The notes under the pieces were generated by a model. It did no database searches. It had not been told where the DNA came from and saw nothing but the letters and a program-made list of their open reading frames with translations. Of a DNA stretch of 64,000 nucleotides, positions 10,319-38,269 are shown in pieces (the first letter of the stretch is position 1; every line of letters begins with the position of its first letter). Location of the stretch: NCBI RefSeq assembly GCF_032854445.1, contig NC_088303.1:14825501-14889500 (forward strand), written 5' to 3'. Source of the DNA: Liolophura sinensis. Taxonomy: Eukaryota; Mollusca; Polyplacophora; Chitonida; Chitonidae. The position numbers were made by a program, and so were the translations under genes.

Positions 10319-10409
10319 AATGTGGGTGAATGTTGGGACATGCCAGGTGGTAAATAATGTGGCTTGAGATTTTTTTGCATTCCAGGCATCCAAATACTGT
10401 AGATATATG

Positions 10410-11295
10410 TTTTGGCATCCAAGGTGTCCATGTACTGTGGTCAATGTTGTGGTATTCTAGGTGTCTGTGTTGTGTCTTCAATGTTGTGGTATTCCAGGTG
10501 TCTGTGTACTGTGGTCGATGTTGTGGTATTCTAGGTGTCCGTGTACTGTGGTCAATGTTGTGGTATTCCAGGTGTCTGTGTACTGTGGTCGGTGTTGTGG
10601 TATTCCAGGTGTCTGTATAATCAAGCTGGATGTTGTGGTATTCCTGGTGTCTGTGTACTGTGGTCAATGTTGTGGTATTCCAGGTTTCTGTGTAACCAAG
10701 CTGGATGTTGTGGTATTATAGGTGTCTGTATAATCAAGCTGGATGTTGTGGTATTCCAGGTGTCTGTGTACTGTGGTCGATGTTGTTTTATTCCAGGTGT
10801 CTGTGTGCTGTGGCCAATGTTGTGGTATTCCAGGTGTTTGTGTACTGTGGTCAATGTTGTGGTATTCCAGGTGTCTGTATAATCAAGCTGGATGTTGTGG
10901 TATTCCAGGTGTCCGTGTACTGTGGTCAATGTTGTGGTATTCCAGGTGTTTGTGTACTGTGGTCAATGTTGTGGTTTTCCAGGTGTCTGTATAATCAATC
11001 TGGATGTTCCGGTATTTCAGGTGTCTGTGTACTGTGGTCGATTTTGTGGTATTCCAGGTGTCTGTGTACTGTGGTCGGTGTTGTGGTATTCCAGGTGTCT
11101 GTATAATCAAGCTGGATGTTGTGGTATTCCAGGTGTCTGTGTACTGTTGTCAATGTTGTGGTATTCTAGGTGTCTGTGTACGATAGCTAAATGTCTCGAC
11201 ATTCCACTTGTTCGTGTACTGTGGTCGATGATGTGCCATTCCAGGTGTCGGTATAATCAAGCTGAATGTTGTGGCATTCCAGGTGTTGGTGTAAT
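10410..11295. repeat. 37-38-bp minisatellite, subfamily 2
   Basis: About 24 copies mixing two unit types: a 37-bp unit with GTGTACTGTGGTCAATG and a 38-bp unit with GTATAATCAAGCTGGATG, both ending TTGTGGTATTCCAG. The 38-bp type clearly resembles subfamily 1 (GCTGGATGTTGTGG). Open frames across it are by-products of the period. Confidence 0.9.
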
Positions 11296-11770
11296 ATAAC
11301 ACATATCCTGACAGCATGGTACCACACAATAACATCCTTACACTTGGCATTACACCATACACAGTAACATCATCCTGACACTTAGCATGGCACCACACAC
11401 AAGAACATCATGCTGACACTTAGCATGGCACCACACACAATAACATCATCCTGACACTTGATATAAGTGTCAGGATGATGTTACTGTGTGTGATGCCATG
11501 CTAACTGTCAGGATGATGTTACTGTGTGTGATGCCATGCTAAGTGTCAGGATGATGTTAATGTGTGTGGTGAAATGCTAAGTGTCAAGATGATATTACTG
11601 CGTGTGGTGCCATGCTAAGTGTCAGGATGATGTTACTCGATGTGGCGCCATGCTAAGTGTCAGGACGATGTTACTGTGTGTGGTGCCATGCTAAGTGTCA
11701 GGACGATGTCACTGTGTGTGGCGCCATGCCAGGCGTCAGGATATTGTTATTGGGTGTGGTGCGGCGTCAC
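11296..11770. repeat. 38-bp minisatellite, subfamily 3, with inversion
   Basis: Units of 38 bp (AAGTGTCAGGATGATG with TGTGTGTGGTGCCATGCT). Those before about 11460 run in reverse orientation and those after it forward. The switch is a perfect palindrome with 16-nt arms (11444-11459 and 11465-11480) around GATAT. Confidence 0.85.
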
Positions 11771-12877: not shown

Positions 12878-15800
12878 ATGTTAAGGAATCAGGTACAGTG
12901 GGTGATATGGGCGATAGCCCTTTGCCAAGCGATCCCAAGTGGTGCTGTGCTCGCCAGGGCCCGCCCCAGTGGGACCAACTTCCGGGTTGCTTATACGGCC
13001 AAGGACTACCTCAAAACTCAAGGCCATGATGTGGACAAGCAGATGGGTGAGTTTAAAGTTTATAGTTTATTTTTCGCTAAATATTTATATGTATTTTAAA
13101 AGTTACTGCACTCAGAAAAATTAATCTGTTAAGTTTAACAGAAAGACTGATGTTTGTGAATACATGATAGCATCACTCAGACAACAGGCTTTCTGTTAAA
13201 ATTAACAGATTAATGTTTTGGCTGTATAAGGAGAGCGTCATTATGGCAAACAAAAGCAGGAATTGGAAATCTGTCAAAGAGGCGGAAAGATTACACAAGT
13301 GACAGGAAAGTATACATAGTTCATAAAGTCCACAGTTGTAAAGGGGACATTTCGTTGGGATATCTACGTTTAAGAGAATGCTTCGTTGGTTTAATGGCTG
13401 CTCCCCGCGCCCGCTGGGGGACGTGGGGTCAACCCGGGCTGGGATCATACCTAAGGTTGAAAATGGTACTTGTTGCTTCTCGCTTGGCCTTCAGCACAGA
13501 AAGGTTGGCGAGGAAACAGGACTGGTTGGCCCGGTGTCAGTCTAACGTGACTGGGTGCAGTATCATGTCTCATGTCTTCGACATGAATTTTCAGTGTCTG
13601 CAGCACTTTGACGACATGGGCTCGTCTTGCCACAAGAAGACACATAATAGTGTACCAATTGCCTCCCCGTTGTCATATGACTGAAATATTGTTGTTCGAC
13701 GCAAAACCCCAAGAACACATACATACGTAGATGTGATTAAGAAATGTTGAGATACGCAAAATTATTAACAGGTATTAAAGTTGACTTCCGTGAGGGAAAT
13801 CCTTTTAATTGGATTTTTACAAAGTGCGTTGCATTTTCATGAAAAAAGAGTAGCTACTGCAAGCGCAAGTTGAATGGCAGCGTAAAACTGAAAAAGTAGA
13901 ACATGCCATCGTCTTGTGTGATGGATTCGCTTTGCGATGGATGCACAAGCTTTTAGCAGGCTGGCTTCATTATATACGTAACATATGCACATCTCTGACC
14001 TTGGTCCAATCTGCTATGTCTTCTTGTTAGGATTTCGATTCACGTCACGGTCCTATTGTTTCAGAAGTTGGTATAATAAGGGTTTACACAGGGATCTGTG
14101 TCACGATAGTTCATCTCCCAGATGTTTTAATAAGCTACCTGATTATCGGGGTGTCTTTGGACGTGTTTTTTTGGGGGGGGGGGGAGGGGAGGGTGATAAA
14201 ACATCAACAAGATTCCATTGGATATTAAATTTATTTACCATCAGTCTACCTTTGAATTGCACACTGTTGGAGCATCTGTAATAGTGTACAAAAGATTTTT
14301 GTATTAAATATCACAAATTCTAGAAACCTATATAATTGGCTTTGCAGTGTATGATGACAATTTGCAATGTATATCAGTTTTTGAAAGCTTTATTAATACA
14401 TACATGTACCATGCAGGCATCATTACTGGTGCATGTATATGGTTTTTGTGATTGATTCACATTATTTATAATCTGTATATATATATTTTATTGTATAAGA
14501 ATCTGGTGGATTATTTTTCAGTGTGTAAGGAGCCGTTTTATCCCTCGGGTCGCACCTGTTATTTGGTTAGTCCGGAGAAGATGAAGTTTGAAGATGCTGA
14601 TAAGTTCTGCAGCAGTGCAGGAGCCAGCTTTGTGGAACCTTCCACATCTGAGAAAATGAACGAGGTGAAAAACTTCTTGAAATCCCGTGACGAGCAAGGT
14701 ATGATTGGGGCGTGATCAATGGGTTTAAACATGTTCTTAAAGAGAAGAGATCTCTACATAGTCCATGGATGTGCATTAGGTCAGGTTTGTGGCATTTTCA
14801 TCGAGGTTCACGTACTTCTTTCTTTGTATGAACGTATATCATGGTGTTGATATTGAATACTGAGTGATGGCTGTGACAGAAAATCACACTGAGCTTCGAT
14901 GGTGACATTTTCTGTACACTTGGTAAACCATGGTAAAACATAGAGTACCAATGCATGTTCCAGAAAATCCATAGTATTTTCAATTATTTTAAGTGTAGTA
15001 GCAAGGATCAAACGCATGTTCATTTCGAAAATTCTCCTTAATTATCAGACACCATCCCCAACACAAAGCGTATCAACAACGCCATTTCATAGAACTGCTG
15101 GCTGGATGTAAAGAGTAATAAATATATGTACAGTTTTCCCCTTGTAGTGGACGTTTGGGTGGGTGGACAGAAAAAATCTGGACACTGGATATGGACAACG
15201 TCAGGAGCACATTTGCAAACGACGTTTTGGGCTCCAAATGAACCTGCTGGAACCTGGAAATTATGGGCGCCCAAAGATTTCGTGAAACTCAGTTATCAGT
15301 CAGACTACCAATGGAAAGCTGAAAGCAACGGAAAAGAGCTTAATGTTCTTTGTGAGCAACGTAAGTAAAAATCTCCCCTGTACGTATACCCCATTGGCCA
15401 ACAGGGATAAAGACTTGGAATGAGCGGTTTCTTGCTACATAAGCCTCTTGTGTGGCTTATAGGCTTTCATAAATCCATAATGAGTACAGATATGTCGCCT
15501 AATATGCGAACAAATTACATCTAAATGTTCCACTTCGAAGGGTCTCAGTAAGTTAATATTCATCGTTTATACTATTTTACATGCTAAAGATGGCATTGTA
15601 TCTACCTGTACATGGGTATACCTGAGTGGTTTCCATGGGGCCATGGAAGGGGAATTTGCGTGTGATAAAACTGACCGCCATCGTAGGTGAAAAATAATTG
15701 AGTGCGGCGTTAAACAAGACTCAAATAAAACGAATAAATTAATAATTTAATTTCACTTAAATCGTGGATCTATTTCACAAACATTCATGGGGCAATTACC

Positions 15801-18800
15801 AATAAAACTGGAAATAAATGCCTTCTCAGATGACCCCTTGCTGGCGGCTGCTTGTCCCGATGGTACCATATTCAGAGGACAATGCTACACTATCGGTCAC
15901 GAGAAGAAAACCTGGCAAAATGCCAGAGCACACTGCGAGAAAACCAAGGGAGAAATTGTCATGGTTGACAAGAAACCAGTCTACCAATTCCTTGAGACAA
16001 AATTGTACCAGTTGTTTGGAGAGCCAATCAGGTAAGTTACAGTTTCACCACTGGTATGTTATATTGTTTGTGCATCGCAATTTTTGGCCTAGACAGATAT
16101 TACGGACTCCGTTGAGGTATCTGGTAATCATAAGGATATAAGTCAGAGGGTACCTCGCCAAGCACTAGTTGTTCATCTATAATTAACTTGGACAGGAACT
16201 CAAATTATTTATTCTGAGGATTTTTAGAATGTAAGGAAGCCTATTGGTGCCACTGTAAATCAAAAAGTTTTCTAGCATGTTTAATTTTCTAATCTAAACA
16301 TGTGGTAATTTTTGTAACAAAACGAGGGCGTTTCAGAATGAGAAGGGTTTTTTGCGTATTTTTTCCGACGTATATCTCAAGCATTGTGTTGCAAAAATCA
16401 AGCCTGGAATATAATTCTGTGTAGCAATACCATTTGGACGTTTGAGTACAAGGTTTCCAGCGGGTTCTGGATAAACATCTGGAAGGCGGTGACTCGTCTG
16501 TTTGGGGCCGGAGAGGAATGCAGCCTGTTTGATCGTGATACTGGAGAAGTCAGCATCGTGGACTGTGGCACCAAACACCCTTATGTCTGCGTGTTTGAGA
16601 ACAGAGGTTAGTTCTCATGCATACACCTGTATATTTATTGAGTACTGCAGTTGACACACATACACACACACGCGCACATACGCAAACAAGAAAATAAACA
16701 TGAAGACTCTTTATGGTTCGATGTGTCGAATATTTCTTTATCATTTTAACGTGTGATGTCTCCTGTTTATGTGCTTTTATCGATAACAAAGCAAACATGA
16801 ACAAGTTTCTTTGACGTGATAATAAATCACCGTTTCGGAACCTTAAGAGTTAATATCCGATGCGAGAGTATTTAAGGTTTCAACCGTATCCATGGAAAGG
16901 AAAGGAAATCTGAATATCGTTTAGAAGGGACTGATTGAACAATCAAGAAAGTGAAAAAAAAAATCCCGGATGGTAACACCAAGTACTGTATCATGGCGTA
17001 CTGATGTCATTATTTGAGTCATGTGCTTTATGAGATTTAAAATGAGGTAAGATGACTACAAGAAGAGCCCAATTCCTTTTCAGTATTTGTCTTTTGAGGG
17101 CTCCATGGCAAAAATACACAAGGTTTGGAACAACGTATGATACATTTGCACCTTTCACGTGCGGGCTGCACACTTTGATTCTTTCAGTAAAGCATTTCTG
17201 ATACGTGCACGTGCATACGCGGTGTGAACTTGGTCTTCGTTCATGTAGTCCGAGGTTGTGAGTTTGACACTGGATTCACCAGTGTAAGCTTGATTTACAC
17301 ACTTGAACATATTGTCTTATACTGAAAGCAAATTAGGAGATCGAGTTCAAAATAAGGCAATACCTTACAATTGTTAAGAAGATGGTTGGGACTGCTTTTC
17401 TTTGAGGGTGATCCAAGATAGCTATCGTCGGCTATCTTAATTCATTGACCAGTCTATGACTGATCTTTTCATGCTATGAACCGGATATCTTTAGATCAAA
17501 TCCAGGGTTTGCTTCGAAACTTGAGATTAGTCTTGTCATTGATGAAAATACTGGAGAGATTGCTTTTCTCTGAGCTCCATTATAAAATACGACTTCCATC
17601 GACGATTTTTGATTTCAAGTAGAGACCAATTTCACAAAAGTTACGCAGTAGCACAAAGTTACAATTCCTCTTGCTATTACGAAGACGACACCTCGTAGAT
17701 GGTAACCCTACACTGGATTTATAAATATATCCTTAAAACTTACTTATTGACAGGGGACTTATACTCGCACATGAGTATTCACCTATCATATTGTAGTGTA
17801 CAAATGAAACTGTGTGTTTTTGGTTTCCTTTAGAGAAGTTTCCGGTGAACTGTATCGAGCATGATGGAAAGTGTTATAACGTATACACTGAGCCCAAGCC
17901 TGCCCGGGACGCACAGTTAGCCTGCCAGGGTATCGGAGCCCAGAGACTGAAAATTGAGGACGAGTCTCAGGAAACCACCATACTGATAGATCTGTTCCAA
18001 GAAGGGTTAGTTGACGTTATGTATTCGGAATGGCTGTTTTCATGACAGTATTATGCCCCGTTTTTGTGGATCATGCTAGCTTAATAAGTACATTGGTCAA
18101 ATATAAGAAATGACGCATTAATCTGTTCTTACTTGCTTGCAACGCGTACATTTTTATTTAACTGCCTAACAATCTGGGACATACATGTGGTCGGGTTAAA
18201 TGTTTTTCCTATATCAAAGGTGCGGCATTCGCACGTAAAACACACAAACGATGGCTTAGAGGATAAATCTGTGATGTGTTGCCCAAGTTTTGCCTTGTCG
18301 GCTTAGACCCGAATCTGTAGCGCGCAATATGTGTAATTGAAACAGCTAGGATTCACTATAGAAAATGCCAACGTGCTATATCTTTCCGAAACTTATATAG
18401 ATTCAGTTTGCAGATGTGTATAGCGTGATGCGGATGGCGCAATTGACTTCGATGGGCTTCTAAAGACAACATGTAAAACACAATCCTTGGAGTTCCCAAT
18501 TCGGGACTAGGCCTATATGTTGGTCTACAACTTGGAAGATGTCTATTGTGGGAGATTGCTTGTTAACTCAAATAATGGATAGCCCCACTTCAAATTATTT
18601 ACGGTCAGTTTTCTTCTACAAATACATGTAGTACCCCACCTTTTCCCCGGGATGTTTACGAATCCAGTTTCTGAGGCTATGTAAATGTATTTCAACATAT
18701 GCCGACAATAGGGCCTAGATAGCCATTTTCGTCATATTCAGAAGTGAAATTGTTGATCACAAGACGGCAATGAATAAGAAGAATGCACTGCATTGGTTAT

Positions 18801-21800
18801 TCCCACAGAAATGGTACCCCGGAGAGAGGGCTGTGGTTGGACTCTCACGTTGAAGGGGGACAATCCAGAAAATTGGGATTGAGCGCGGTGAGTGGAAATT
18901 CACGTTTCCTCCCACTACAGTGCTAACCGCGTAAAACACCAATCAAATAAATAAATAAATAAATAAATAGAAAGTCCACCAATTCTTCACATTTTGTTTC
19001 ACAAAGTTATTTCATGTGTTGACAATCAAAATAACAGTCCATCTTGGCAAAAAGCCTGATCTTGTACGCCTATACTGAGTAGGCCTACCTGAATCTCCTT
19101 CCAGTCTGGCAAAAAAATGCTTTCAACGCAAAATGTGGAATATATCTCTAGGCGGCCATCCTCTCCCACAGGATTTACTTAATTTCCATTTCACGACATG
19201 TTAATTCGGTAGCCCGTGACAAAGGAGATTGAGTGTTTGAACGTACTTCCGGTGGGTTCAGTGCGACTGTACGCCCTGAAAACTCTGTTTATGTTATAGG
19301 CTGTTTGTGCGCAGACCTTTATTTCATTCCTAACGACAAGTTGTTCATAAGGATCTGTCGTCTGTTGCAGTTTTTTGACAGGTTATTTTATCTGCACATG
19401 GAGCGAGGGTCTGGACTGGCTGCCGAGTGTAATGTGTTGAACCATGATAGAGGCTCCATTGACAGCCGAGACTGTCAAGAACGCCATTTTTTTGCCTGCG
19501 AATACGGGGTCCAAGGTTAGTAGCTGTGGCAAATCACATTTGCATCTTTTAGAATATGATGCAATGGTCTTATGTGGATGGAATATACTTACTGTTATCC
19601 ATTACTGTTGCAATCGCTAGGCACTCAGCACTGACAAGATGCAGAACAGAACTAGTTAGCCCAATGTCAGTATAATGTTTCTGATGTCTTCGGCATGATA
19701 CTTCAGTGGTACTTTGAGGGCATGAACCCAAGAAGACGTGGTATATGTACACATACGTAATGAGCCCTCCTCGTCATATGACTGAAGAACTGCACGACGT
19801 AAAACCCCAAGCATACACGCATACATGTACACTCACACATACATACACAAATACTTTTGTAAAATTAAGGTGAAATGTAAAATTTAATAATACAGGTTTA
19901 ATTGACGCTATACCCCGTCCTCAAGAGCATTTCAGTTATATTATGCAGGGGGTAAGGCATTTGATGACGAACATCGAACTCCAATTTGATGGACAATTCT
20001 CCTGATCATTGACAACTGAATTTGAACTAGCGACATAATTCGTGTATTTTAACCATCAATAATTTCTTTCATGAGAATTAATGAATGATTATGCATGCAT
20101 TGAGTGATGTAGAACAATACAGCAAAGTAATGGGTTAATTGTGTTTAGATGGCCAATACGCTGTGCAAAAACTAAGTACTGTAATGGGTTAATTGTGTTT
20201 AGATGGCCAATACGCTGTGCAAAAATTAAGTACTGTAATGGGTTAATTGTGTTTAGATGGCTAATACGCGGTGCAAAAGTAAAGTACTGTAATGGGTTGA
20301 TGGTGTTTAGATGACCAGTACGCGGTGCAAAAGTAAAGTACTGTAATGGGTTGATTGTGTTTAGATGACCAGTACGCGGTAGAGAAGCTTAACCAGGAAG
20401 TGGAGGAACTAGAACGCCAACTGAAGGAATCCAGCGGAGCCTTCTTACACAAAGTACAAGAGGTGAATCAAAGAGAAGGTGAGTTGTTGTATTTTTCTTA
20501 TGTTCCAAGTTCTAAAAAACCTCGGTGATGTTAACTTGAACACACCCTTTATATGAGACTTGTTCTTCGATTGATCAAACGTAAAAACAAGAAAATATGT
20601 TCGGTTTTATGTCTAGAGTAAATACAATGTTGTTTGGTGCGCATTAAAGGTCTGCAGTTAAGTGTATGAAACTGCCGCCTTCGTACTGCAAATGAGGGAA
20701 TGTATGTTTATGGTTGGGATAGACAAAAGGATGCAAAATGCACAGGCTTTACGTTCGTAGTTAAAGTTTCTGGGTGGTAGAAAGTAACCAAGATATTGTA
20801 GTTTGGCCAGTAATTTTCCATTAAGATATGAAAACAAAAAATTGAATCTAAGGACCAAGTCCGATATTTGTATAGCACTGGTAACCCATGTACCCAAAGT
20901 TGAAGTGAAATTAGAACTCATACTTTACCTTATCTACGGGGAGGCGGGGAGGGTGAACATGTTGTTTTCTCTCAGGGGTCGCAGTGCTAGACCCTGTTGT
21001 ACTATCCCCACTCTGCATGATTTTCACTCCTCATATTATGATGTGACTTAACAGCTGTTGGTATCATTGCCTGCTTAATTGTGTTTCCAGAGTGGCTAAT
21101 TTAATAGTTTGTCAGAAATTTTAATTATGGTTTGTTATTTCATTTTTTTTTCAGGCGATAAAGACCTTTTCCAGGTAGACATAAGACTGACTCCTGAACA
21201 AGAGTTGCGCTTACACGGTAATGTGGTCACCTCAAATGGAAATGGACTCAACCAACTGGATGCTGACGTCACACCTGAACTGTACAGAGATTGGCTATCA
21301 CACCAACATAGAAGGTAAATGTGTGCATATAGGCTGCTAAATCCGACAAAATACTCAAATAGGAGGTCTTGATTTATAATGTATTATTATTATTATTATA
21401 TAATAATTAATAAATTATTTATACTTGAGGAGGAGGTGGGGGGGGATGTGGCAAGGATAGTGAACCCTTTATGTAACCCATGCTCCAAAGACTTATGGCA
21501 AATTAATCAACTGATGTCTAAATGTATGTACATTTATTTATTTATTGGATTCGTGCATACGCCGTACTCAACAATATTTCACTTAAACGACGGGGGCCAG
21601 CATTATGGTGGGAGGAAACCGGGCAGAAACCCGAGGGAAACCTAAGACCATCCGTAGGAAGTAGGACCTTCCTATTTTCCTTCCTATTTTAATACATGTA
21701 CTTGATTATTTCTAAACAGCAGTTTTATTCAATAAATCAGATTAGTACCATCGATCTTTCTGGACTTTTCAGGACTAGACGAAATGCCCTCTCCAATACA

Positions 21801-27800: not shown

Positions 27801-30800
27801 CTTGACTCATACATTACAGGGGTTTCTGTGACCGAGGTGGTTAGCACACCAGCACGGCACAATGACCCAGAAGCCCCTCACCAATGCCGTCGCTGTAAGG
27901 GCAGCCCATGCTGGCTTCCTCTCCGGCCATACATAGGACGGTCTTCAAACAACCTGCAGATCATGGGTGTCTCCCGGGCTCTCGCCGGTTTCCTCCCGCC
28001 ATAATGCTGGCCGCCGTTGTATAAGCGAAATACATTTTTCATGACCGACAGACTGACCGACAGACTGACCGACAGACTGACCGACAGACTGGCCGACAGA
28101 TTGACCGACAGGCTGACCGATTAACTGGCCGATTAACTGACCGACGGGCTGACCGATTGATTGACCGATTGACTGACCGATTGACCCACACACAATGTGA
28201 CTTGTACAGATATTGCCGCAGCCAAAATCAACCTCCAGTCGACAAATTATTCCTGTGTTTATTATGATTACACAAATTAACACTTTGCAGTGGATTTATT
28301 TGAGCAGAGAGCAAATTGTTAAATACAATGCGGTTAAATTGATGATGGGAATTACATGCAGTCTGAGGTTGATATACCTGTCCGAACTAAAGAGTATCCA
28401 AAATGTTACCAAAGAAGATGTTTTGTAACCTCAGATACTCAGCAAATTGCACATAAGCAGGACTTCAAAAAGCTCAGTCTCAAAAATCAACCATATTCAG
28501 GACAAGTTAGATGCTTTTTCAATAACTTACTCTGATTATTTGCAGATAGTGAACTGATTTCTTGGAATTATTCACTCTAATATACTTCATGGTAAAATGC
28601 GACAACCGTTCATTCCGTTTCATTCACTCTAATTTACATACCTGTAGCTTTGTTTAGATTATTTGCAATAGTTAATTGGTTTCTTGGATTAAAATGTGAT
28701 AACCATACATTCATTCACACATATTTACATGCTTCTAGCTCTACTTTGTAATTTATAATCCAATGGTAATTTGCAATAGTGGATGAATGTGTTTCTTGAT
28801 ATAAATTTGCGCTAAAATGTAACAGTTACATGCCTACACTCATAATGACTTTCCTTTCCGCTCAGTGGACGGTGGGTGGTCTGTGTGGGGCAACTGGAGC
28901 CTCTGTTCGAGCCCTTGTGGCACTGATGGTTTTAGCACACGCCGCCGGTTCTGTGACAACCCAACACCCATGCATGGCGGCCAAGATTGTGGGGACTCAT
29001 TGTATGACGGGGTAGAAATTCGGGAATGTAACAGGATACCCTGCTCTTCTGGGAATCGTAAGGCTGCAGTCTTACTTCGGATTAAAATGAATGTCAATTG
29101 GTTATAATCTTTACCTGTTTACTTTCTGGTGTAGAGTATTTTTTCCTTCAAATAAAACAAAGTGACATTCCACAGCATCTATACCTAGATCCAAATCTAT
29201 ATTTCATTTGAGGTTTATTCAAGTTTCTTACTCGTCCATAATTTAACAGAAATTTAATTGTTCAGATTAGTCTATGTTATATATATATTTATTTTGTGTA
29301 TATACTTTGATACATTAACCTCAACCGATGGGTTTTTGACCATTGAGGTCTAAAACTAGAATCCAGCTCCCGTTCAGGAAGTTTATCTGGTACTCAGGGT
29401 AGGACAATTGCTTGTCAGGGCTCTACCTGTTTTCACCAACCACGATACTCTACTGCGAACGTCTTTTGCATAAAAGGAAGACCGACTTCTTCGTAGGACA
29501 TATATTTCAGACAAATTTTAAGCTTTATGTATCAAATGTATCTGGAGTATTAGCGGTAAACATTAAAGATACATGTGTGTGCCAAAGGCATTAATCTGTT
29601 CAACTCCGTGTTGAAACATGTTTTGTCTAATAGAATGGTTTCATAAAATGCCATCCATGTAAATTTTTTTAAATACACTTAAGACACATCTGTTTATGTT
29701 TCATGTTAGCTGCACAGAGTCAGCAGAAGACACCTGCCATGGACTTTTCCATGGAGCAATTGCATGGTCTCAAAATTGAAGGCAACACAGGGCCTTTGAT
29801 AATTCAAGGAGAAGTTAATTTGACTGAAGACGGTCGCGTTGGACACGGTCTGAAACTACAAGGTGGTCAGGTGACATATCAAGGTATAAGACTTTGTGTA
29901 TAACTAGTCAAAATGTACAGTGAAAGAAATCCCGTGTCAAATATTTTTTTTTACATCAGATTAACGAAAACAAGACAGGGGCATTGAACAATTTATCTTG
30001 TAAATATTTCGAAGTTTGTTTAATAGAAAACTTGCACGGGCAATAGAAATTATGATTAATAGAAAAATATAAATATAAACGAATCTCATCCAGATAACTA
30101 CTTTTCACATTTTTATCTGAGGAATCTGGAAGTTAAAGACGTAGTTAGTGCAAAGCAGTTGCCAGTTGTATCTATGCTGTTGTCTGGCATATGGATATAT
30201 AACCAAACACTTTGCAAATGTAAGAGGCTATGGCGGGCTTCACAATGTTGTCCAGACCGCACTAAATATTGCTTTCTGTAGCAACGCTACAATGTTTCTG
30301 CACCTCCTGTGTGTTGTATAATCATAGCCAGCGAAAAGTATGACTTACAACAGGGAATGAACACAAGAGTACACTGATTTGAATCGCTATGTTTAAAAGA
30401 TATGGAATCGACACTGATTTTTCTTACAGTCGGGGTGGGGTTGTCTGTGTTAAGCTGTACAGCTTTGGTCACGGTTGAATAAATCTGTCAAACTTAAAAT
30501 TGAGCTGAGATTCTGTATCCCTTTAAATTTTTAAAATATATTTCATTGGAACTAATCATCCAGTACAGACTGTCTTTTTACATAAATCTGCCCGCTGCAG
30601 TTGAAGGTTGGGGTGAAACTGTATCCATAACGCAAAGCAACAAATTTGCTCAAAATTGTGTTGGGATTTTAGCCAGGAGTTTTCTGCTCAAACTTCCTTA
30701 AATGACTTCAAGCCGGGTGGATAAAACATAAATATTGCGGGAGGTTCAGACAAAAGAGTGCGAAAAGTTAGTTGCAAACATTTTTTTCGATTCATCTTTA

Positions 30801-33800
30801 AAGAGAAAGACATTTAAAAATGAATTTTTTACTGTTGGTATTTGGGACCTCCAAATCATTTTTATGTTTTAAATTCTTATGATTTTTGAGTTTTGGACAG
30901 ACTTTGGAGATATTCTAGTTATCAATATTGGAATACCGTTACTTTTAAATGATTTTGGTTTAACGCGGCTATTATTTATTACACCTTTCTATAAACCGCC
31001 TCCACTGATAGATAATATTTACTTTCAACATTCAGGTCAGTCCTGTTTGAACATACCTAGTCAGTGTGAGATGGGATTTACCTTGTCTATGTTTCTCAAG
31101 GCCGATATTGCCCATGTCAAAGAGAGAGACAGGTGTGTATTGAACCGTCTGTATGCACAACTAAACTCATTCATTTATTGATTTACTTGACTGGTTTTTA
31201 GTATCGTAGTCAAGATGTAGTCACTTATACCACGCCAGGCAGATGTATGGATAGGAGAAACAGGATAAAACTGACCTCAGTCGCAAAAGTGAAAATTTCG
31301 GGAGTATGGCGTTAAATGATAATCCGATAAATAAATAAACAATAAAACCGGAGTACCCACAGTAAGCCACCACCGTTCGCCAGGTGTACCTGATAAAACA
31401 CCTGACATCAGCCAATGAACCAGTCAGAATTCCTTATAACTTTATTAATGATTCAGGCTTAGATTGTTCATGACAGGAGAAGTAAAGAAAAGTGGAACAC
31501 TTAAATCTCATTAATAAAATACCCATGTAAGCGATACAAGCGCCATAAAATTACGTTGTCTTCTCATGGAGGGCATGTAAGTACGACATCTTGCAGAAAA
31601 GGAGAAAAATGTAAGGCAAATCACTCAAATACTTCATTCCAGATAACGTTTTGTAAACTACAACCAGTCTTCCTTTTTTAAAATTGATAATAGTTTGAGA
31701 TAATCATAAAAGTCAAGGAATTCGTTTGTCCCTCTCTTCATCACTGTCGGTCATATTGGCCATTGGTACTGAACTTTAATTTTCCTTCACTATAACCCTG
31801 ACGCTTTACCTTTGTGTTTCTGTAGGCCCACGTATGTGTTCAGTAGTGGTGTGCAGTCCGAGGAAGTGGAGACTGACGATCATCAGGGACTGGCTCTTTA
31901 CTTCAGACAAGACGGCATGCTCAAGGTACACGGGATTTGTCCTGATTAATGCATCTTGCTTCCCAGGTTGAAAGCCAATCTGTACAAAACAAAGGCCAGC
32001 TCATGCTGACTTCTCCTCTGACCGTGCGTGAGAAGGTCTGCCAGCAACTTGCCTATGGCCGTGGGTTTCCACCGGAGTCTGCCCGATTTTCTCCCACCAA
32101 GTATTCCTGGCTATGGTGTAAAACACCAATCAAATAAATGAATCAAAAACAAAAACAGAAGCTTTGAATTCCCGAAAAATGTCGGCGGCGTGTTTCACTC
32201 ATGTTAAAAAATAGGATGTCAAAAATTATGACCATATTAAAGTGTAGGATTTCAAACATTTGACCTTTCGACCGACCGACAGATAAACAGAACGATTTGT
32301 GAAACTTCTTATGGCAGCTAAATCACGTCTAGTAGTAGATATTAAAGATTCCTGATATCAAATCAATAGCAAAGGCATACGTTTTGACAAATAATTTACA
32401 GGCAATTCAATTATGACCTATATTTAGTATCCCATAATCAGATTTAACCAATGATAGTTTCAACACAGTTATAGCAGCTTTGGTATGTATTTAGAATTAT
32501 AATCAAATTTAGCAAAATGACGTCCGGGATTCTGTTGAACAAGTGTGTATGCCAATGGTTAAATGTTGTGTTAATGTCTTATGTGTTTAGTGTTTGAGTA
32601 GTTGACCTCGCACAATTTGATACTGTATTTGACAAATATTGATACTCCTCTGGATTTACAGGCTACCCTCCGCACAAATGAAGTAGAATGTACCACTGAC
32701 CTGCCACCTTCGTTATTCACGGATTCCGCGAGATTTTATCACGTGGCCGTGATCTATAGCACGGAGGTCTGCCTCACTATGTATTACCAAGGTACTGTAG
32801 TCTCACTGTGATGCCATCATTTGTTTGATACACCAGATACCTTTATGGTTATTTAATAAATATCACCCGACAGCTCAAGTCGAATGTGTGCGGCTGATAT
32901 TGCAATATTACCAGTGAAACATACAGGATTGTGGCGCATAAAGAAACTTAATTGGTTGTCATGCGACCTGCATCTTGACACTGGTCATTACCGTTTTACT
33001 GTGCACATCTTCTATCGAAGGGGAACCATTGGACAATGACGTCCACGGAAGGCCGAATGAAAACAAGGGTTCCAGAACACGGGACTCGTTCATCTTGGGG
33101 AAATCCTTTGATGTGACCGGCCACGAGCTGAGGGGTACACTTGACGAGGTGCAGTTCTGGACCGAAAGTTTGTCTGCTGCAGATGTTCAACAAGTCTTCC
33201 GATCAGGTAATGGGATTGTCACAGCAGACTTATCTCTCCCTGCGTGGCATCGACCTTAGTGTTGCATGTATGCAAGAACAGGAACGCATGACACAAGTAC
33301 TGGAGATGTTTATGCACACGTACTGGAGATAGTTGTGTGTCTGTTTTCTTTTCTTAATCCCAGACGGTTAGGTTAAACATTTGTTATGTGTAATCTTGGG
33401 AAAGAAATCGAAGCACAGGAGTAGGTTTCATTTGGTCAAAAATTGACCTGGAGCGTCTATTTTGGTTGACGGCTGGTATGCAAATGTTGGTTTCGACGCG
33501 TAGATATATTAAAAAAGAAATAAACAAACCATGAACAGCCTGACTGATTAATCTTAGAATTCACTTGACGTTATATAAACTATGCTTTTAATTAAGCGTG
33601 TACTTTTTATAAAGAGATATAACATTATGGCTGCATATTCATCTTCTGTGTTCATCAAATAACAAAGTAGTATTCTCTTGTTTTGCTTGTTTTATTCAAT
33701 CTCTTGTTCAAGTTTATTGCTGTGAAAGGAAGATGGGAAATGTCCAAGGAGAAAACGGCCAAATGGAAAAACGTCCAGTCGTTCAAGAATCAAGAATAGC

Positions 33801-36800
33801 TCGTATTTCAGGTATCATAGGGGTGTAGGGAGCAGTGGGTTATATTGTAAGCACGATTATGGGGTAATCGTGAGGCAGAAGAGATATTATACCTATGTCA
33901 CGGTTTTGTTTCAGTGCCTCTCTCTTGTAGCGATTGTGATCCAAACGCCGACTGCAGCGTGCAGGGTTGTACTTGTAAGCCAGGTTACCAAGGCGACGGC
34001 TTTACTTGTGGCAAGGAAAAAGGCAGGTTATTTTTCAATGTATTTCCTTTCACAATGAATTTCCCTTGAGTGGAAAATGGTATTACTTATCCAGTTTTTA
34101 TGCCATAATTTTATACTCATGTTGTCAGTATCTGTGGTGCGGTACTTCAATGTTCAAAACATAAAGTTAAGTTAGTATGAAGGAATAAGATTTCAGGCAG
34201 ATGGTGTGCTTACGACATACATCCAAAAGCTCACTTTAGTCAGGCCATCTTTGATTTAGTACCTCAGCAGGGAATACTGAGGAAATGTTAAATCAGTTTA
34301 TATAGATTGTTTTCTCGCTCCAATATGTCGGTAGACCTTGGCTACAATCACAGCCGGCGACACCCATGTGGCCGTGTGCCACAAGTCTTCCATGCACAAG
34401 ACTCTAACCAACGTCACACGTGGGAAATTTTATCAGTTACTTACCAAACGACGGCGGTTTACCCTGGGCACTTCCATAAACCTAAGTGTTCTTCTGAAAG
34501 GTGATAAATGTATGAGTATATCATAGTAATAAAGTCAACTTGAATTTCCCAATTTGGCCAATCAGCAGAAATTCTGGTATAATATCTCCATGGAGTCATT
34601 AATTCATTGTGCGAATTTTCACGTCGTCACGGCTTCAGCAGCAGCCGATTCGTCCACTGATTCCGCCGCGATATACCTGCCGCTGGATGAAGGGCAGGAC
34701 CCTGAACTCCAGGCCACGACCGGCATGATTGGCTCAGCTATCTCATTCGATGGACGAAGAGATTGGATTAATGCAGGTAAAGCTTTTATGGTGAACAATC
34801 TACGGCATATTTGTATATAACCTCAAAGCAGAAATCAGCCTTGTTTACATATAATATCAGCTTTGTCCACGTAAAGCGTTGAGCGCATTTTCGCTTCGTA
34901 AATTTATTTTAGTTATCCTCCTCGTTAATCATTCTGGTGTCAGCATGACCCAGTCGAAATTATTTATATAATCCCAAACTTTTTAAAATTAGCAGATTAG
35001 TACACCACTTGTCTGCCAGCATGTGTTTATACTCCAAATACTGGGATATCACTTATAGAGGAAGTTAAATAAGTAGAAATGGATGAAAATGCTCAGTTTT
35101 GTAACACACATTTTGTAAGAGTCATCGTTTTTGACGCTGTTATAGGGGAACTATCATCGTAGTCGCAACTTTGGCTACATCTGCTATACCTTTTGAGGGC
35201 AAACAAGTGACTTTTCCTGTTGTAATTAAAAAGATAAAATAATAATACACTAAATTCTAATAGGGGAATATTTTATTTACATGGCCTAGTTCTTGTAGCG
35301 GTTTTGATCTCACGGGATATTGTAGAATTGGAATCGATTCTCCGTAGGCAATTTCAGTGGAAAATGCCTAAGTAAACCAGACAATTGTGAGGACGGCTTC
35401 ACTATCGCATACTGGATGAAGTACTTTGGCCGAGGAGACCGTCCAAACTATGTCTTGTCCAGTGCCGCGCAGGTAAGACTCCATTAGACTGATAACAAAA
35501 TAATGTGTTACAATGATGCTTGACAACGGCATTAGTACCTATACCGAAACGCGCAATATATTCATATTTATCAGAAGTAAAGTAGATTTTTTCACCTTAC
35601 GATCACTGCCTAAATTGTGAAAATGCGTTGCACATGAGGTTGTGGAAAAGCACATGTGTTTCTAACGGACCGCCGTCGTAAAAGAGAAATATTCTTGAGT
35701 ACGGCATAATACAGTAAATAAAGATATGTAGACTACAATGATCTCTGCATTCATTAATAATAGGGTCGGGCCACTGGAGTTGATGTTTACATTGACGGGG
35801 ATAAGATGAATGTTTCTGTGCTGACAACAACACGGCATTTCACGGCCATCTTACCTATCTCAACCAATCAGTGGGTTCAATACTCCATCGTTTGGAACCA
35901 AACCGGTGGGCTCAAAGTCTTCGTCAATGGACAGGTAGGTGAAGTTGAAGGGATGTACCAGACGACATATGGAGTAAGCTGAAACAAATCTTAGACATGA
36001 GGAAAAGTTTGTTATCCCACTTCGGGGATACGGTCTTCCTTTTCAATCAATTTGGCCTGTTGAAAACATTACCTTGTACTCCATGGAAATCTAAAGCATT
36101 CCTTCAGTACTAACCGCATAAAGTATCATTAAATAAGGTTAAATGTTTGTCTAAGATTACACCGTGATCCCGGGTCTTATTGCCATCGTTCAAAAAAGGG
36201 CACTTTCCTTTCTTTGTTTCCCATGTTTATTTCTTTGCATAATGTACAATATCTCGTCCCTTAGTTTACTCTTGGCCTTTACACCCAAGTGTTATTTGAA
36301 GTTTTTCATGTCCGCTTTTATTTTTCAGCCAAGACAATTGGAACGACTGTATAACGTACTTTTCTGTTTACGTAAACGCAATTGCCAACGTACACACCCC
36401 AATAGGGGAGAAGACTCTTGAATAATTGGCCAGAAATCGGGAAATCAGAAATCTTGTAATACTAGCATTACAGGAATTGGCAACTATACCAGACAGTGTA
36501 CAAAGTGACACCGGAGCCAGTGTATCGTGTACATTTGTCTTTGATTTGTTACCTCACTCTTTTAACACATATTATATTTTACAGAGCAATCAACAACACT
36601 TCCAGCTAATATATTGCATAAGATCAAAGACCTGAGAATGTTCACTGAAAGTTGTGATCTACCAAAATCAAAACAAAGTTGCATTAGGTTGGTGTTTGTT
36701 CCCCGCCAGGAAAGTTTTAGAGGACACAGGAGTACTCTCCGCATGTCCGTTCTTCCGTCTGTCCATCTTTCACACCTGTCACACCTGGGCATGATTTCTT

Positions 36801-38170
36801 CAAAGGTTTTCAACGAATCAAGTCCATACATACTGGTTTGATGATGGCAAAGGGAAGATTGGGACTGATTTTTGTTAATCGACTTAAGTATGAGTAATGT
36901 TGGTCATTTTGGATCGTCATTTTGAAGAGGTTAATTAATATATGTTGAGAGTGACAACCGGTTTCATAATAACACAGTGTAAGGGAACTTGTTAGCAACT
37001 TGGCATCTCTTAAAAATGTTATCTTTCCTGGTTTTGTGCAGCTCATGGAAGATGTGACCCAACCGAAGCCTGTTACTTTATCCGAGACGGAGAACACCGA
37101 ACTGAGAATTGCACAACCAAACAACTGTTTTGTCCTGAATGGCAGATTCATTCTTGATGACGTCACGGTTTGGCTGGAATCTCTAGATGCGTCCGAGGTG
37201 AAGAATTATTATGAGTCTGGAGGTAATTTGACCGGTTAATATTCCTAAAGATTTTCATTTGGAAATACTGTAAGTTGTTAAAATTTAAATTGTTCATAAA
37301 CATATTTATTTCTACACAATATGCTAAATATTCAATGTGTTTTAATGATACAGGCCACAGCATCAACAAGTATTGAATGAGTCGAATTCGACTAGTCGAA
37401 CGAAATAGAAGACAAAACGTTATTTCATATAATTTATAGAATTCAAGATAGCACTATTTAAACGGTGGGTGAAATAGTGTTTATTATGTTTCGTTCACCA
37501 AGTCGAATACGACGAGTCTAGACGACAAATGGTATTGTGTGAACGCGCCATTACTGATAAGATGTAGAGGTAAAAGCCTGCAACGAATATGAATATGCCT
37601 GTTACACAGACGTCTTGCACGGAGATCATACGCCCATAGTTGAAAATATTGGTTGGTTTTATTCTCTCGACAACAAAGGGTTTAGGGTTCTTTTTTCAAA
37701 TTTTTTATTTGGGATTTAATGCTGTACTCATTGATATTTAACTCAAGTCCCGACTGTCAGTTTTATGGGAAGAACATCTCGGAGCGCTCGTAATTCATTC
37801 GGTCTTTGGCGTACAAGTATATTAACTGACGAACTTTACCACATGATATGCACAGATTTCTACCTGTAGTATAAGTCACAAATTCTCGAATTTGACGTTC
37901 AGTGCAAATCAGATCTATAAATTTTAAAAGATAGAAATCAACATGAACGGTTCAGGGAGCACAGACGACGGCTTATTGGCTCAAAGGGTTCGAGATCGGT
38001 TGAAGCGGAGGGATTCTTGAGGTTGGACCTGAATTAGGCTTCCTCTGGCCTCTGGTCTCGTAAATATTTTCTAGCAAATATACGCTATCAATCTTCAGAT
38101 TGAAAGGAATATATAACTATTTACTTCCATTTCAGCCAGAGCACCAGTAACTGGCGACATCTTGCAATGA
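12878..38170 (+). CDS. Secreted mosaic astacin metalloproteinase (CTLD3-astacin-TSP1-WSC-like-TSP1x2-LamG-EGF-LamG)
   Basis: A 29-exon gene of about 4464 coding nt (1487 aa). Exons: 12878-13046, 14522-14698, 15148-15360, 15830-16031, 16425-16606, 17834-18005, 19352-19515 (start uncertain), 20365-20478, 21155-21314, 21773-21855, 22145-22265, 22680-22864, 23795-24016, 24178-24366, 25876-25991, 26495-26675, 27360-27536, 28866-29057, 29710-29883, 31036-31132, 31826-31925, 32662-32791, 33021-33206, 33915-34022, 34639-34776, 35348-35472, 35764-35934, 37042-37222, 38136-38170. Each junction was chosen by splice consensus and phase, and the frame closes at TGA 38168. Exon 1 begins with a Met and a hydrophobic signal peptide (WVIWAIALCQAI). 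Expected activity is zinc-dependent extracellular proteolysis, targeted by lectin-like, TSP1 and LamG modules. Most module borders are phase-1 introns, typical of exon shuffling. Family by domain is firm; substrate and function are unknown. Confidence 0.85.
13120..13214. mobile_element. Short MITE or hairpin in intron 1 of astacin gene
   Basis: 95 bp with 26-nt terminal inverted arms: 13120-13145 (ATTAATCTGTTAAGTTTAAC...) pairs with 13189-13214 with a single mismatch. Non-coding centre. Confidence 0.6.
13375..13730 (+). mobile_element. SINE family B copy
   Basis: Head is degraded; the body (TTGGCCTTCAGCACAG, GGTTGGCGAGGAAACAGG, GTCATGTCTTCGACATG-like) and tail (GTCATATGACTGAAATATTG, GACGCAAAACCCCAAGAAC) match the copies at 39450 and 8960. 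Lies in astacin intron 1; the open frame 13355-13684 is this element. Confidence 0.7.
14168..14184. repeat. Poly-G tract
   Basis: A run of about 12 G followed by AGGGGAGGG, intronic. Confidence 0.8.
14522..15360 (+). CDS. Astacin gene: CTLD 1 (residues ~57-186)
   Basis: Exons 14522-14698 and 15148-15360 encode a C-type lectin-like domain. Seen: the opening cysteine pair (VCKEPFYPSGRTCY), helix cysteine (DKFCSS), WVGG, and the closing NVLCEQ. The usual EPN or QPD sugar motif is replaced by APNEPAG and no WND motif is seen, so calcium-dependent sugar binding is doubtful. Both outer introns are phase 1. Confidence 0.8.
15600..15742 (+). mobile_element. SINE-like copy sharing the family A tail
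   Basis: Contains AAACTGACCGCCATCGTAGG, GAAAAATAATTGAGTGCGGC and GTTAAACAAGACTC with an AATAAA-type tail, a diverged relative of family A. Confidence 0.5.
15830..16606 (+). CDS. Astacin gene: CTLD 2 (residues ~187-314)
   Basis: Exons 15830-16031 and 16425-16606. Seen: CPDGTIFRGQCY, ARAHCEK, then EECSLF, VDCGTKHPYVCVFE at the end, giving the CTLD cysteine frame. No EPN/QPD or WND, so probably not a calcium-dependent lectin. The inner intron is phase 2, matching that of CTLD 3, which suggests duplication. Confidence 0.8.
17834..19515 (+). CDS. Astacin gene: CTLD 3 (residues ~315-426), internal acceptor uncertain
   Basis: Exon 17834-18005 carries VNCIEHDGKCY and LACQG. The second exon ends at 19515 with AAECNVL, RDCQERHFFACEY. 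The strongest acceptor (CTGTTGCAG ending 19370) gives phase 0 whereas the natural donor at 18006 (GTTAGT) leaves phase 2. An acceptor at 19351 (CATAAG) restores the frame, as would a poor donor at 18016. The stretch before AAEC matches CTLDs badly, so the domain may be degenerate or the exon misdrawn. Confidence 0.6.
18895..18970 (+). mobile_element. SINE family A tail fragment
   Basis: GTTTCCTCCCACTACAG, then CGTAAAACACCAATCAAATA followed by repeated AAATA. Confidence 0.6.
19600..19850 (+). mobile_element. SINE family B copy, 5' truncated
   Basis: Body (GGCACTCAGCACTGAC, TGATGTCTTCGGCATGATAC) and tail (GTCATATGACTGAAGAACTG, GACGTAAAACCCCAAGCATA) match family B. Lies just downstream of the CTLD 3 exon. 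Confidence 0.65.
20127..20364 (+). repeat. 54-bp tandem repeat of a splice-acceptor region
   Basis: Five copies of an intron/exon boundary (GGGTTAATTGTGTTTAG|ATG) with AG at 20148, 20202, 20256, 20310 and 20364, exactly 54 bp apart. Only the last leads into an open exon; using an upstream copy gives an early in-frame stop (for example CAA AAG TAA after the fourth). Confidence 0.9.
20365..20478 (+). CDS. Astacin gene: coiled-coil linker exon (residues ~427-464)
   Basis: A 114-nt phase 1-1 exon encoding EKLNQEVEELERQLKES and KVQEVNQRE, with leucine/valine spacing typical of a short coiled coil. It could mediate oligomerisation before the protease unit; that is inference. Confidence 0.8.
21155..21785 (+). 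CDS. Astacin gene: propeptide with aspartate switch and furin site
   Basis: Exon 21155-21314 and the start of exon 21773-21855 (to about residue 521). FQVDIRLTPEQ at 21169-21201 corresponds to the astacin prosegment FxGD motif whose Asp caps the catalytic zinc: Asp is kept, Gly is Val. The join reads HRRTRR followed by NAL, a furin-type RxxR site immediately before the normal astacin N terminus, so activation by a proprotein convertase is likely. Confidence 0.8.
21530..21660 (-). mobile_element. SINE family A copy, truncated
   Basis: TTTATTTATTTATTGGATTC, then CGCCGTACTCAACAATATTT, GGGGGCCAGCATTATGG and GGAAACCGGGCAGAAACCC: the reverse orientation of the consensus. Confidence 0.75.
21773..24016 (+). 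CDS. Astacin gene: M12A catalytic domain (residues ~522-721)
   Basis: Exons 21773-21855, 22145-22265, 22680-22864 and 23795-24016 encode about 200 residues, the family norm. Seen: WPSGKVPYVID near the start; GCYSYVGRIGGQQ; the full zinc signature [20 protein letters not shown] (22771-22830; His617, His621, His627 and Glu618 in my numbering); and the Met-turn SLMHY at 23866-23880 with its tyrosine. All catalytic residues are present, so the enzyme should be active. The domain ends in the usual LYNCQ. Confidence 0.95.
24178..24366 (+). CDS. Astacin gene: TSP1 repeat 1
   Basis: One phase 1-1 exon. WGFWASWTPCSATCGGG shows the tryptophan ladder and the CSxTCG O-fucosylation site, followed by RSRDC, ETCMPEEC. 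Residues about 722-784. Confidence 0.9.
25564..25800. repeat. 81-bp tandem repeat
   Basis: Two full and one partial unit starting near 25581, 25662 and 25743 (core TAACGTCGTGGTGATAGT, CTTCGTACTAGT, CCCCTCGAAACAATCGC). Lies in the intron just before the WSC-like exon. Confidence 0.85.
25876..26675 (+). CDS. Astacin gene: four-cysteine WSC-like module (residues ~785-883)
   Basis: Exons 25876-25991 and 26495-26675. Pattern: LGCW, then GQYSERR, KQCAQAAREKGYTIFALR, GGKCF, DKCEHG, IDVYRLG. This resembles a small extracellular module common in invertebrate secreted proteins (GC-Y-D ... C--AA--GY--FA---GG-C) and the WSC carbohydrate-binding fold; I cannot assign a Pfam name with certainty. The donor is GC (AAG|GCAAGC at 25992) and phase 0 on both sides supports it. 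Confidence 0.75.
26695..26975. repeat. Degenerate ~30-bp minisatellite
   Basis: Loose repeats of TGATACATTTCATGAAGC-like units with many substitutions, inside an intron of the astacin gene. Confidence 0.5.
27360..27536 (+). CDS. Astacin gene: TSP1 repeat 2
   Basis: One phase 1-1 exon, residues about 884-942. DYGPWSVFAPCTKSCGGG retains one ladder tryptophan and the CxxSCGG O-fucose pattern; further cysteines are at RSC, KPC, EAC and MEC. Confidence 0.9.
27616..27820. repeat. 21-bp minisatellite
   Basis: About ten units of 21 bp (TCATACATTACATATCTTGAC and variants) directly before a full SINE. The open frames on both strands reflect a period divisible by three. Confidence 0.85.
27822..28040 (+). 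mobile_element. SINE family A, near full length
   Basis: A tRNA-like head (TGTGACCGAGGTGGTTAGC), then GCACAATGACCCAGAAGCC, GCTGGCTTCCTCTCCGGCC, CCGGTTTCCTCCCGCC, ATGCTGGCCGCCGTTGTATA and AAGCGAAATAC. The best reference copy of the family in this window. Its 3' end passes straight into the 12-bp array. Confidence 0.8.
28041..28190. repeat. 12-bp minisatellite at a SINE 3' end
   Basis: About twelve units of GACCGACAGACT drifting to GACCGATTGACT. It replaces the usual AAATAAATAA tail of the adjacent SINE. Confidence 0.85.
28866..29057 (+). CDS. Astacin gene: TSP1 repeat 3
   Basis: One phase 1-1 exon, residues about 943-1006. GGWSVWGNWSLCSSPCGTDG has the full tryptophan ladder, but proline replaces Ser/Thr in CSSPCG, so the O-fucose site is lost. 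Later cysteines are at RFC, QDC, REC and IPC. Confidence 0.9.
29710..33206 (+). CDS. Astacin gene: LamG/concanavalin-like domain 1 (residues ~1007-1235)
   Basis: Five exons (29710-29883, 31036-31132, 31826-31925, 32662-32791, 33021-33206). Motifs: MDFSMEQLHG, GRVGHGLKLQGG, EMGFTLSMFLKAD, LALYFRQDG, FYHVAVIYS, and the closing LRGTLDEVQFWTESLS of LamG-type jelly rolls. A disulfide pair (SCLNIPSQC) leads strand 3. Likely glycan or matrix binding, by family. Confidence 0.85.
31228..31346 (+). mobile_element. SINE-like copy, diverged
   Basis: AAACTGACCTCAGTCGCAAA, GAGTATGGCGTTAAATGATA and ATAAATAAATAAAC resemble the copy at 15600-15742. Confidence 0.45.
31968..32140 (+). mobile_element. SINE family A copy, 5' truncated
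   Basis: CAGCTCATGCTGACTTCTCC, GAAGGTCTGCCAGCAACTTG, GGTTTCCACCGGAGTCTGCC and GTAAAACACCAATCAAATAA in the right order. Confidence 0.75.
33915..34022 (+). CDS. Astacin gene: EGF-like module
   Basis: One exon of 108 nt. SCSDCDPNADCSVQGCTC then GYQGDGFTC gives the EGF-type cysteine spacing, compact version. The donor is read as GC (AAAAAG|GCAGGT at 34023): the alternative GT at 34027 would leave phase 2, while every usable acceptor near 34638 requires phase 1. Confidence 0.75.
34639..38170 (+). CDS. Astacin gene: LamG/concanavalin-like domain 2 and C terminus (residues ~1272-1487)
   Basis: Exons 34639-34776, 35348-35472, 35764-35934, 37042-37222 and 38136-38170. Motifs AAIYLPLDEG, AISFDGRRDWINA, EDGFTIAYWMKYFGR, WVQYSIVWNQTGGLKVFVNG and FILDDVTVWLESLDASEV parallel LamG 1. 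The last exon adds only ten or so residues (ARAPVTGDILQ) before TGA; no membrane anchor follows, so the protein is secreted. Confidence 0.85.
35640..35727 (+). mobile_element. SINE family A tail fragment
   Basis: ACGGACCGCCGTCGTAAAAG, GAAATATTCTTGAGTACGGC, AGTAAATAAAG. Confidence 0.5.
37381..37518. mobile_element. Foldback element in the last astacin intron
   Basis: Imperfect inverted arms: GTCGAATTCGACTAGTCGAA with CGAAAT near 37381-37407, against the reverse complement of 37487-37518 (TTTCGTTCACC, GTCGAATACGACGAGTC). About 140 bp, non-coding. Confidence 0.45.
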
Positions 38171-38263: not shown

Positions 38264-38269
38264 AATAAA
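38264..38269 (+). terminator. Poly(A) signal of the astacin gene
   Basis: AATAAA about 95 nt after the TGA at 38168-38170, giving a short 3' UTR. The first canonical signal in the right place. Confidence 0.7.

Follow-up and report, generated by a model that had tools for sequence, protein, structure and literature searches.

Does a single gene join C-type lectin-like domains (CTLDs) to an astacin protease and, if so, do these domains lie before or behind the activation site? This question is raised by a locus of the chiton Liolophura sinensis, of which a stretch of 64,000 nucleotides (C9:14825501-14889500, the window) was analysed. The chiton assembly was first named Liolophura japonica, and a correction renames it to Liolophura sinensis (PMC12441733). 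The genome used in the searches contains 609,464,459 bases in 632 contigs. As judged from the DNA and its predicted protein, the best explanation is one gene for a secreted astacin zymogen, which probably carries the CTLDs and a coiled-coil-like segment in a removable pro-region and a matrix-holding tail on the mature enzyme.

Gene model and domain order

The exons were read from the DNA and joined by script. The joined coding model consists of 29 exons (4386 bp) and encodes 1461 aa followed by TGA, with zero internal stops. The phases are compatible at 28/28 exon junctions; as the splice sites were picked with the frame in view, this compatibility is partly built in and is no independent test. 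With this proviso, the single continuous frame through 29 exons claimed in a first-pass annotation was recovered, and the ends and the exon number are equal in the rebuilt model. The introns comprise 26 GT-AG and 2 GC-AG introns, with the GC donors located after exons 15 and 24. The exact exon ends are uncertain for exon 5, exons 6-7 and both GC donors. The features are as follows.

12878-38170, + strand: gene span, exons 1-29, from exon joining on the DNA; 1461 aa, then TGA
12878-13046, + strand: exon 1, with the start codon, a probable signal peptide (MLRNQVQWVIWAIALCQAIPSG) and a linker; ends in phase 1
14522-14698 and 15148-15360, + strand: exons 2-3, CTLD1; Lectin_C 40.5 bits alone
15830-16031 and 16461-16606, + strand: exons 4-5, CTLD2; Lectin_C 32.3 bits alone, in two stretches
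17834-18005 and 19382-19515, + strand: exons 6-7, CTLD3-like module; Lectin_C 17.1 bits alone, below the cut-off
18809-18887, + strand: possible extra CTLD3 exon of 79 bp, with an acceptor and a GTGAGT donor; used with acceptor 19371, frame kept
20365-20478, + strand: exon 8, phase 1-1, coiled-coil-like linker (VEKLNQEVEELERQLKES) with V L V L L at the a/d positions of one register
21155-21314, + strand: exon 9, astacin propeptide; FQVDI replacing FXGDI
21773-21855, + strand: exon 10, with RTRR (residues 496-499) as a furin-like site and, behind it, the expected mature N terminus NALSNTVGTWPSGKVPYVI
22145-22265, 22680-22864 and 23795-24016, + strand: exons 11-13, astacin catalytic domain with HELLHALGFYHEQSRYDRD and SLMHY; Pfam 204.8 bits
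24178-24366, + strand: exon 14, TSP1 repeat 1; Pfam TSP_1 at residues 709-757
25876-25991 and 26495-26675, + strand: exons 15-16, WSC-like module; WSC 24.9 bits alone, below the cut-off
27360-27536, + strand: exon 17, TSP1 repeat 2; one of three TSP_1 stretches in the protein
28866-29057, + strand: exon 18, TSP1 repeat 3; TSP_1, and TSP1_ADAMTS at residues 928-980
29710-29883, 31036-31132, 31826-31925, 32662-32791 and 33021-33206, + strand: exons 19-23, LamG domain 1; Laminin_G_3 44.9 bits
33915-34010, + strand: exon 24, EGF-like domain with six cysteines; GC donor
34639-34776, 35348-35472, 35764-35934 and 37042-37222, + strand: exons 25-28, LamG domain 2; Laminin_G_3 50.2 bits
38136-38170, + strand: exon 29, which codes for the final 11 residues and ends in the stop codon TGA
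38264-38269, + strand: AATAAA, probable polyadenylation signal 3' of the stop codon

The most hydrophobic 19-residue stretch of the whole protein begins at residue 8, in the predicted signal peptide region. According to the Pfam scan of the joined protein, astacin, three TSP1, two Laminin_G_3 and two Lectin_C matches are above the cut-off, and CTLD3, WSC and EGF are below it. The domain order proposed earlier is thus confirmed, but its CTLD3, WSC and EGF members stay under the cut-off. Chordopox_A33R also passes in the whole protein (24.4 bits vs the cut-off of 22.5, residues 179-232), whereas CTLD2 alone gives 18.2 bits and falls below. This match is read as likeness of CTLD-like folds. Two NCBIfam rows fall below the cut-off. 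Rfam gave 0 matches at the gathering threshold.

The inter-module junctions are phase 1 in 13/13 cases, vs 6/15 inside modules (hypergeometric 7e-4); the module borders in this count were assigned by the analyst, and the exon 24-25 joint (1/13) depends on a GC donor. Exon shuffling in animals usually works with phase-1 modules. According to its exon phases, the gene appears to have been assembled by phase-1 exon shuffling.

Astacin catalytic domain

The PF01400 profile matches over its whole length (204.8 bits, positions 1-189/189). The zinc motif HEXXHXXGXXH, followed by EXXRXDRD, is intact in exon 12 (HELLHALGFYHEQSRYDRD). The Met-turn at residue 650 is SLMHY vs SIMHY, which is one conservative change, and the zinc Tyr is kept. 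The solved structure nearest to the catalytic part is 3lqb (E 4.5e-43). The full profile match, the intact zinc motif and the SLMHY Met-turn bear out the complete astacin catalytic unit of the first-pass annotation. The features of particular astacin groups were also searched for. CUB, a feature of BMP1/tolloid, is absent from the Pfam matches (E limit 1), and neither MAM and TRAF/MATH (meprin features) nor the ShK repeats of ShKT astacins were found in the same scan. By the catalytic features tested, the predicted protein is an astacin (M12A), and its propeptide motif is partly kept. It shares the switch Asp, the zinc motif, EXXRXDRD, the Met-turn and the four cysteines of the catalytic domain with the astacins described in the available part of a 2023 review (PMC9848320).

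N-terminal CTLD modules

The Pfam cut-off of Lectin_C is 22.6 bits, and the third module lies below it. In a single BLASTP comparison of CTLD3 with CTLD2, 22/97 residues are identical (E 3e-9), and a phase-2 intron is common to both modules. These two results support CTLD3 as a duplicate of CTLD2. Against solved structures, CTLD3 gives only weak matches (best E 1.8e-4), all of them to C-type lectin-like proteins. Alternative exon ends were compared for both modules. With the acceptor 16425 of exon 5, CTLD2 gives 29.6 bits of Lectin_C in one full-length stretch, and CTLD3 with the extra 79-bp exon gives 17.3 bits vs 17.1 without it. The longer CTLD2 and CTLD3 models show no clear Pfam gain, and the in-frame alternatives are not separated by Pfam.

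Sugar-binding C-type lectins carry EPN or QPD plus WND motifs. The EPN, QPD and WND motifs are absent from the whole 1461-aa protein, and CTLD1 reads EPA at residue 147, where EPN is usual. Since these motifs are absent, ordinary calcium-dependent sugar binding is not expected, and the CTLD part is probably non-canonical as a lectin. The solved structure nearest to CTLD1 is codakine (2vuv, E 4.6e-10), a 129-residue chain in which PNEPNN is aligned with PNEPAG of CTLD1.

One gene or two

The CTLD exons and the astacin exons are joined here by sequence alone. Two neighbouring genes on the same strand have to be considered, of which the first (exons 1-7, perhaps 8) would code for three CTLDs in a secreted protein, and the second would be an astacin-TSP1-WSC-TSP1-LamG-EGF-LamG gene that begins near exon 8 or 9. 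The region between the CTLDs and the propeptide exon (19516-21154) was searched for the end of one gene and the start of another. No AATAAA is present there, a point against two genes, and one ATTAAA lies at 20643, a point in their favour. Three ATG starts in this region, in two frames, pass the hydrophobicity threshold of 1.5, and none of the three has a consensus-like phase-1 donor, so that no convincing signal exon was found. An in-frame ATG at 21127, just before exon 9, would give MVCYFIFFSG, and this also favours a separate astacin gene. However, MVCYFIFFSG is what the acceptor's polypyrimidine tract reads as, and its ~9 residues before exon 9 are short for a signal peptide. Its hydrophobicity is 1.36, under the scan threshold, and a tolloid-like locus at C1:19.15 Mb has a similar hydrophobic run before FIGDI. 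In addition, read-through from exon 7 stops after one codon, and exon 8 joins both its neighbours in phase 1. The comparison with other loci speaks for two genes, because 0/7 other astacin loci (7 of ~30 loci, tblastn with the modules of the window gene) have an upstream CTLD. On balance the two-gene reading is unlikely, and the predicted exons probably belong to one gene.

That the gene is an assembly chimera, or is in decay, is hardly credible. Tandem repeats are present in the introns, which would fit such an origin, but the exons are open, the catalytic motifs are intact, and the exon matches follow one another in order along a single strand of a chromosome-size contig. At 20127-20380, a tandem repeat of 54-bp units (4.7 copies) overlaps the acceptor of exon 8, and repeats the acceptor and the first exon bases.

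As a separate observation, the polypyrimidine tracts before propeptide exons (21127-21154 in the window, and near C1:19152534) read as in-frame signal-like peptides, which is a trap for gene prediction.

Pro-region and probable activation site

According to the available part of the review, the astacin core consists of a signal, a pro-region of 34 to 486 residues and a catalytic domain, and the pro-regions of animal astacins share only FXGDI (PMC9848320). In the window gene, the pro-region would extend from about residue 23 to 499 (~477 residues, with the signal-peptide end set by the analyst). It would contain the three CTLDs, the coiled-coil-like exon and FQVDI, and would end in RTRR. In FQVDI, the Phe, Asp and Ile of FXGDI are kept and the Gly is changed to Val. 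The protein has a single R-X-[KR]-R, namely RTRR (496-499), which sits between the propeptide and the catalytic domain. Because the CTLDs are N-terminal of the propeptide and of this sole furin-like site, they are assigned to the removable pro-region, and not to the mature enzyme. The numbers of cysteines are four in CTLD1, six in CTLD2, six in CTLD3, zero in the coil and propeptide, and four in the astacin domain. As the counts are all even on both sides, no disulphide is demanded across the RTRR cut. Activation probably removes the CTLD-bearing front end, where we infer both cleavage and release. The first-pass annotation had suggested a pattern-binding protease; this suggestion is doubtful, since the CTLDs should leave with the pro-region.

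The CTLD part might instead stay with the enzyme after activation, either uncut or non-covalently held, and the product would then be a lectin-targeted mature protease. According to the available part of the review, the bond that is cut on maturation is occluded in astacin zymogens and becomes accessible only by partial unfolding or after earlier cleavages (PMC9848320), and the furin-like site may thus be used inefficiently. However, RTRR has the complete furin-type sequence and stands where activation is expected to take place, and no odd cysteine links the two halves. In the known family structures, as far as the same text covers them, the N terminus created by the cut lies buried, bound to a family-specific Glu (PMC9848320), which also speaks against retention. 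We thus consider retention of the CTLD part improbable.

In the preferred reading, with the CTLDs in a removable pro-region, the following steps would occur. The Asp of FQVDI in the propeptide would lie on the zinc and keep the enzyme latent (aspartate switch). The CTLD-coil part would be an N-terminal cap or address in the pro-region, perhaps multimerised by the coil, and the cap would dock the latent enzyme on a ligand, either protein or glycan. Cleavage after RTRR by a furin-type protease would then release the CTLD part. The mature enzyme would have 962 residues from N500 onward, and would keep only the TSP1/WSC/LamG tail. This tail would hold the mature enzyme on extracellular matrix or mucus, and the enzyme would process matrix proteins or growth-factor precursors.

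More tentatively, and with somewhat less than even confidence, we propose that a lectin array is built into the removable prodomain. The cap might address the latent astacin to a ligand and be shed at the single furin site, so that zymogen storage (CTLD-directed) would be split from mature action (TSP1/LamG-directed). A separate CTLD product would possibly be freed. If the pro-region truly carries three folded CTLDs, it would be a natural recognition module that activation removes, and the role of long astacin prodomains would become directly testable.

C-terminal matrix-type tail

Behind the astacin domain, TSP1, WSC-like, TSP1, TSP1, LamG, EGF and LamG modules follow, as the first-pass annotation had it for a long matrix-type tail, with WSC and EGF below the cut-off. 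The WSC profile (PF01822) gives 24.9 bits alone and 17.7 bits in the whole protein vs the cut-off of 27.8, and thus the module is called WSC-like only. EGF_3 gives 28.1 bits alone and 16.5 bits in the whole protein (cut-off 28.5). An RGD tripeptide is present in LamG2 at residue 1320. LamG2 has three cysteines in the model, and this number may reflect a boundary error at exons 24-25. The searches against solved structures gave a single match for the WSC-like module (E 0.57), taken as chance, and three matches for LamG2, none better than E 0.038, which are attributed to chance or to a similar fold.

Relatives in the chiton genome

PF01400 gives 45 exon matches at ~30 places in the genome. With the full protein as the query, the window's own exons score far above the others, and no close full-length paralogue was found among the best 32 of 189 candidates. 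With the propeptide and astacin domain (39/39 candidates scored), and also with CTLD1-3 (44/44 candidates scored), the window's own exons are far above all else. The flanks of seven other astacin places were searched by tblastn with the modules of the window gene. At 5/7 of these places astacin matches only were found, and a CTLD upstream of astacin was found at 0/7.

At C1:19.63 Mb (+ strand), the order is astacin-TSP1-WSC-like-TSP1, the same as in the core of the window gene. Both TSP1 repeats there exceed the Pfam cut-off of 21.6 bits, with scores of 22.9 and 61.6. The WSC-like piece matches by tblastn (38% over 50 aa, E 3.4e-6) and has no Pfam match. This locus suggests that the astacin-TSP1-WSC-like-TSP1 core is a real unit of the predicted tail. 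Unlike the window gene, it has no detected CTLD in ~18 kb upstream, and no detected LamG in ~15 kb past the last TSP1 (tblastn).

The second place, at C1:49.21 Mb (- strand), contains an apparent astacin-CTLD-kringle gene, in which the further modules lie on the same strand, downstream of HETVHALGFWHEQ. The CTLD exon gives 28.9 bits of Lectin_C over profile positions 3-73 of 107, and the kringle gives 79.5 bits. The joints are phase 1 by eye, and a stop after the kringle is followed by AATAAA. Both this gene and the window gene have astacin and CTLD modules, but at C1:49.21 Mb the CTLD is C-terminal and the kringle follows it. This CTLD is the best non-self match of the window's CTLD1, and the match is weak (29%, E 0.026). 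The Met-turn is SVTHY, and the predicted product may not be an ordinary active enzyme. As an apparent second case, the locus suggests that the chiton genome does join CTLD and astacin modules. If true, CTLD-astacin joining would have been repeated in one chiton genome, in differing orders.

In a tree of 13 astacin pieces, the window piece is grouped with those at C1:40.10, 19.63, 26.17 and 49.21 Mb (81/86). It is placed beside C1:26.17 Mb (81/80), and not beside C1:19.63 Mb, which shares the tail; 0/10 inner branches are firm.

The genome was also screened with the profiles of the accompanying modules. PF00059 gives at least 120 matches among the best 150 of 376 candidates, the nearest to any of the 30 astacin places being 91.6 kb away; the screen is insensitive, as it omits the window's own CTLDs and the CTLD at C1:49.21 Mb. 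Laminin_G_3 gives 10 matches, the nearest 2.8 Mb from an astacin place, in a screen that is likewise insensitive, as the window's own LamG exons are missing from the matches. Apart from the astacin places, Lectin_C and Laminin_G_3 matches are interleaved within ~20 kb on one strand at C1:23311206-23330537. CTLD and LamG modules may meet there in another predicted gene or cluster.

Comparison with known architectures

The first-pass annotation had listed CUB, EGF, MAM, MATH, ShK and TSP1 as the partners of known astacins, and had regarded the present arrangement as an unfamiliar one. This list is too narrow, because the 2023 review, in its available part, adds CLEC, kringle, pentraxin and LCCL (PMC9848320). 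The Figure 1 legend of the review names CLEC (C-type lectin), TSP, EGF, kringle, pentraxin, LCCL and more as astacin partners (PMC9848320). LamG and WSC, which are both present in the window gene (WSC as WSC-like), are not in this legend (PMC9848320). A CTLD and an astacin in one protein were considered as an unprecedented pair, and this was rejected, since C-type lectin is among the partners listed in that legend (PMC9848320). In helminth astacins, the extra domains are described as downstream of the catalytic domain in the available text (PMC9848320), whereas the three CTLDs of the window gene are upstream, in the pro-region.

Other reports, each as far as its text was available, give similar partial likenesses. 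In scavenger-receptor-type proteins of the sea slug Elysia, Astacin and CTLD are both named in the Figure 2 legend (PMC7663992); the legend gives them by name alone, and three CTLDs and a LamG pair are not described in that text. A snail paper reports that the modules joined to astacins, CUB most often, are N-terminal or C-terminal (PMC6409789), so that the N-terminal position alone is no novelty. Cnidarian TSR proteins with astacin domains (PMC5446238) have astacin and TSP1 like the window gene, and the text concerned mentions neither three CTLDs nor a LamG pair. In a bivalve CTL paper, WSC is among the additional domains reported for CTL proteins, and the word 'astacin' does not occur in its main text. 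No CTLD-astacin protein is mentioned in the available parts of PMC12549020, PMC4460706 and PMC7460484.

In a literature search of partial coverage, figures excluded, neither an astacin with three N-terminal CTLDs nor the tail of the window gene was found to be described. The unknown arrangement claimed earlier thus stands for the module order, which is undescribed in the literature searched, but does not stand for the CTLD-astacin pairing, which the review legend already lists (PMC9848320). Taken from its predicted modules, the window gene appears to be an unusual arrangement of familiar parts, and not a new kind of enzyme.

Surroundings in the window

Long minisatellites are located upstream of the gene at 6787-8078 (89-bp units) and 9884-11762 (~37-38 bp units). 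Among the neighbouring open reading frames, nine of the 119 long ones were scanned, and these nine contain no domain above the cut-off. The frame at 60819-61139 (- strand) has 107 residues, with CFCSDNNC and a hydrophobic C terminus, and gives no Pfam match. By eye it resembles a small GPI-anchored three-finger protein.
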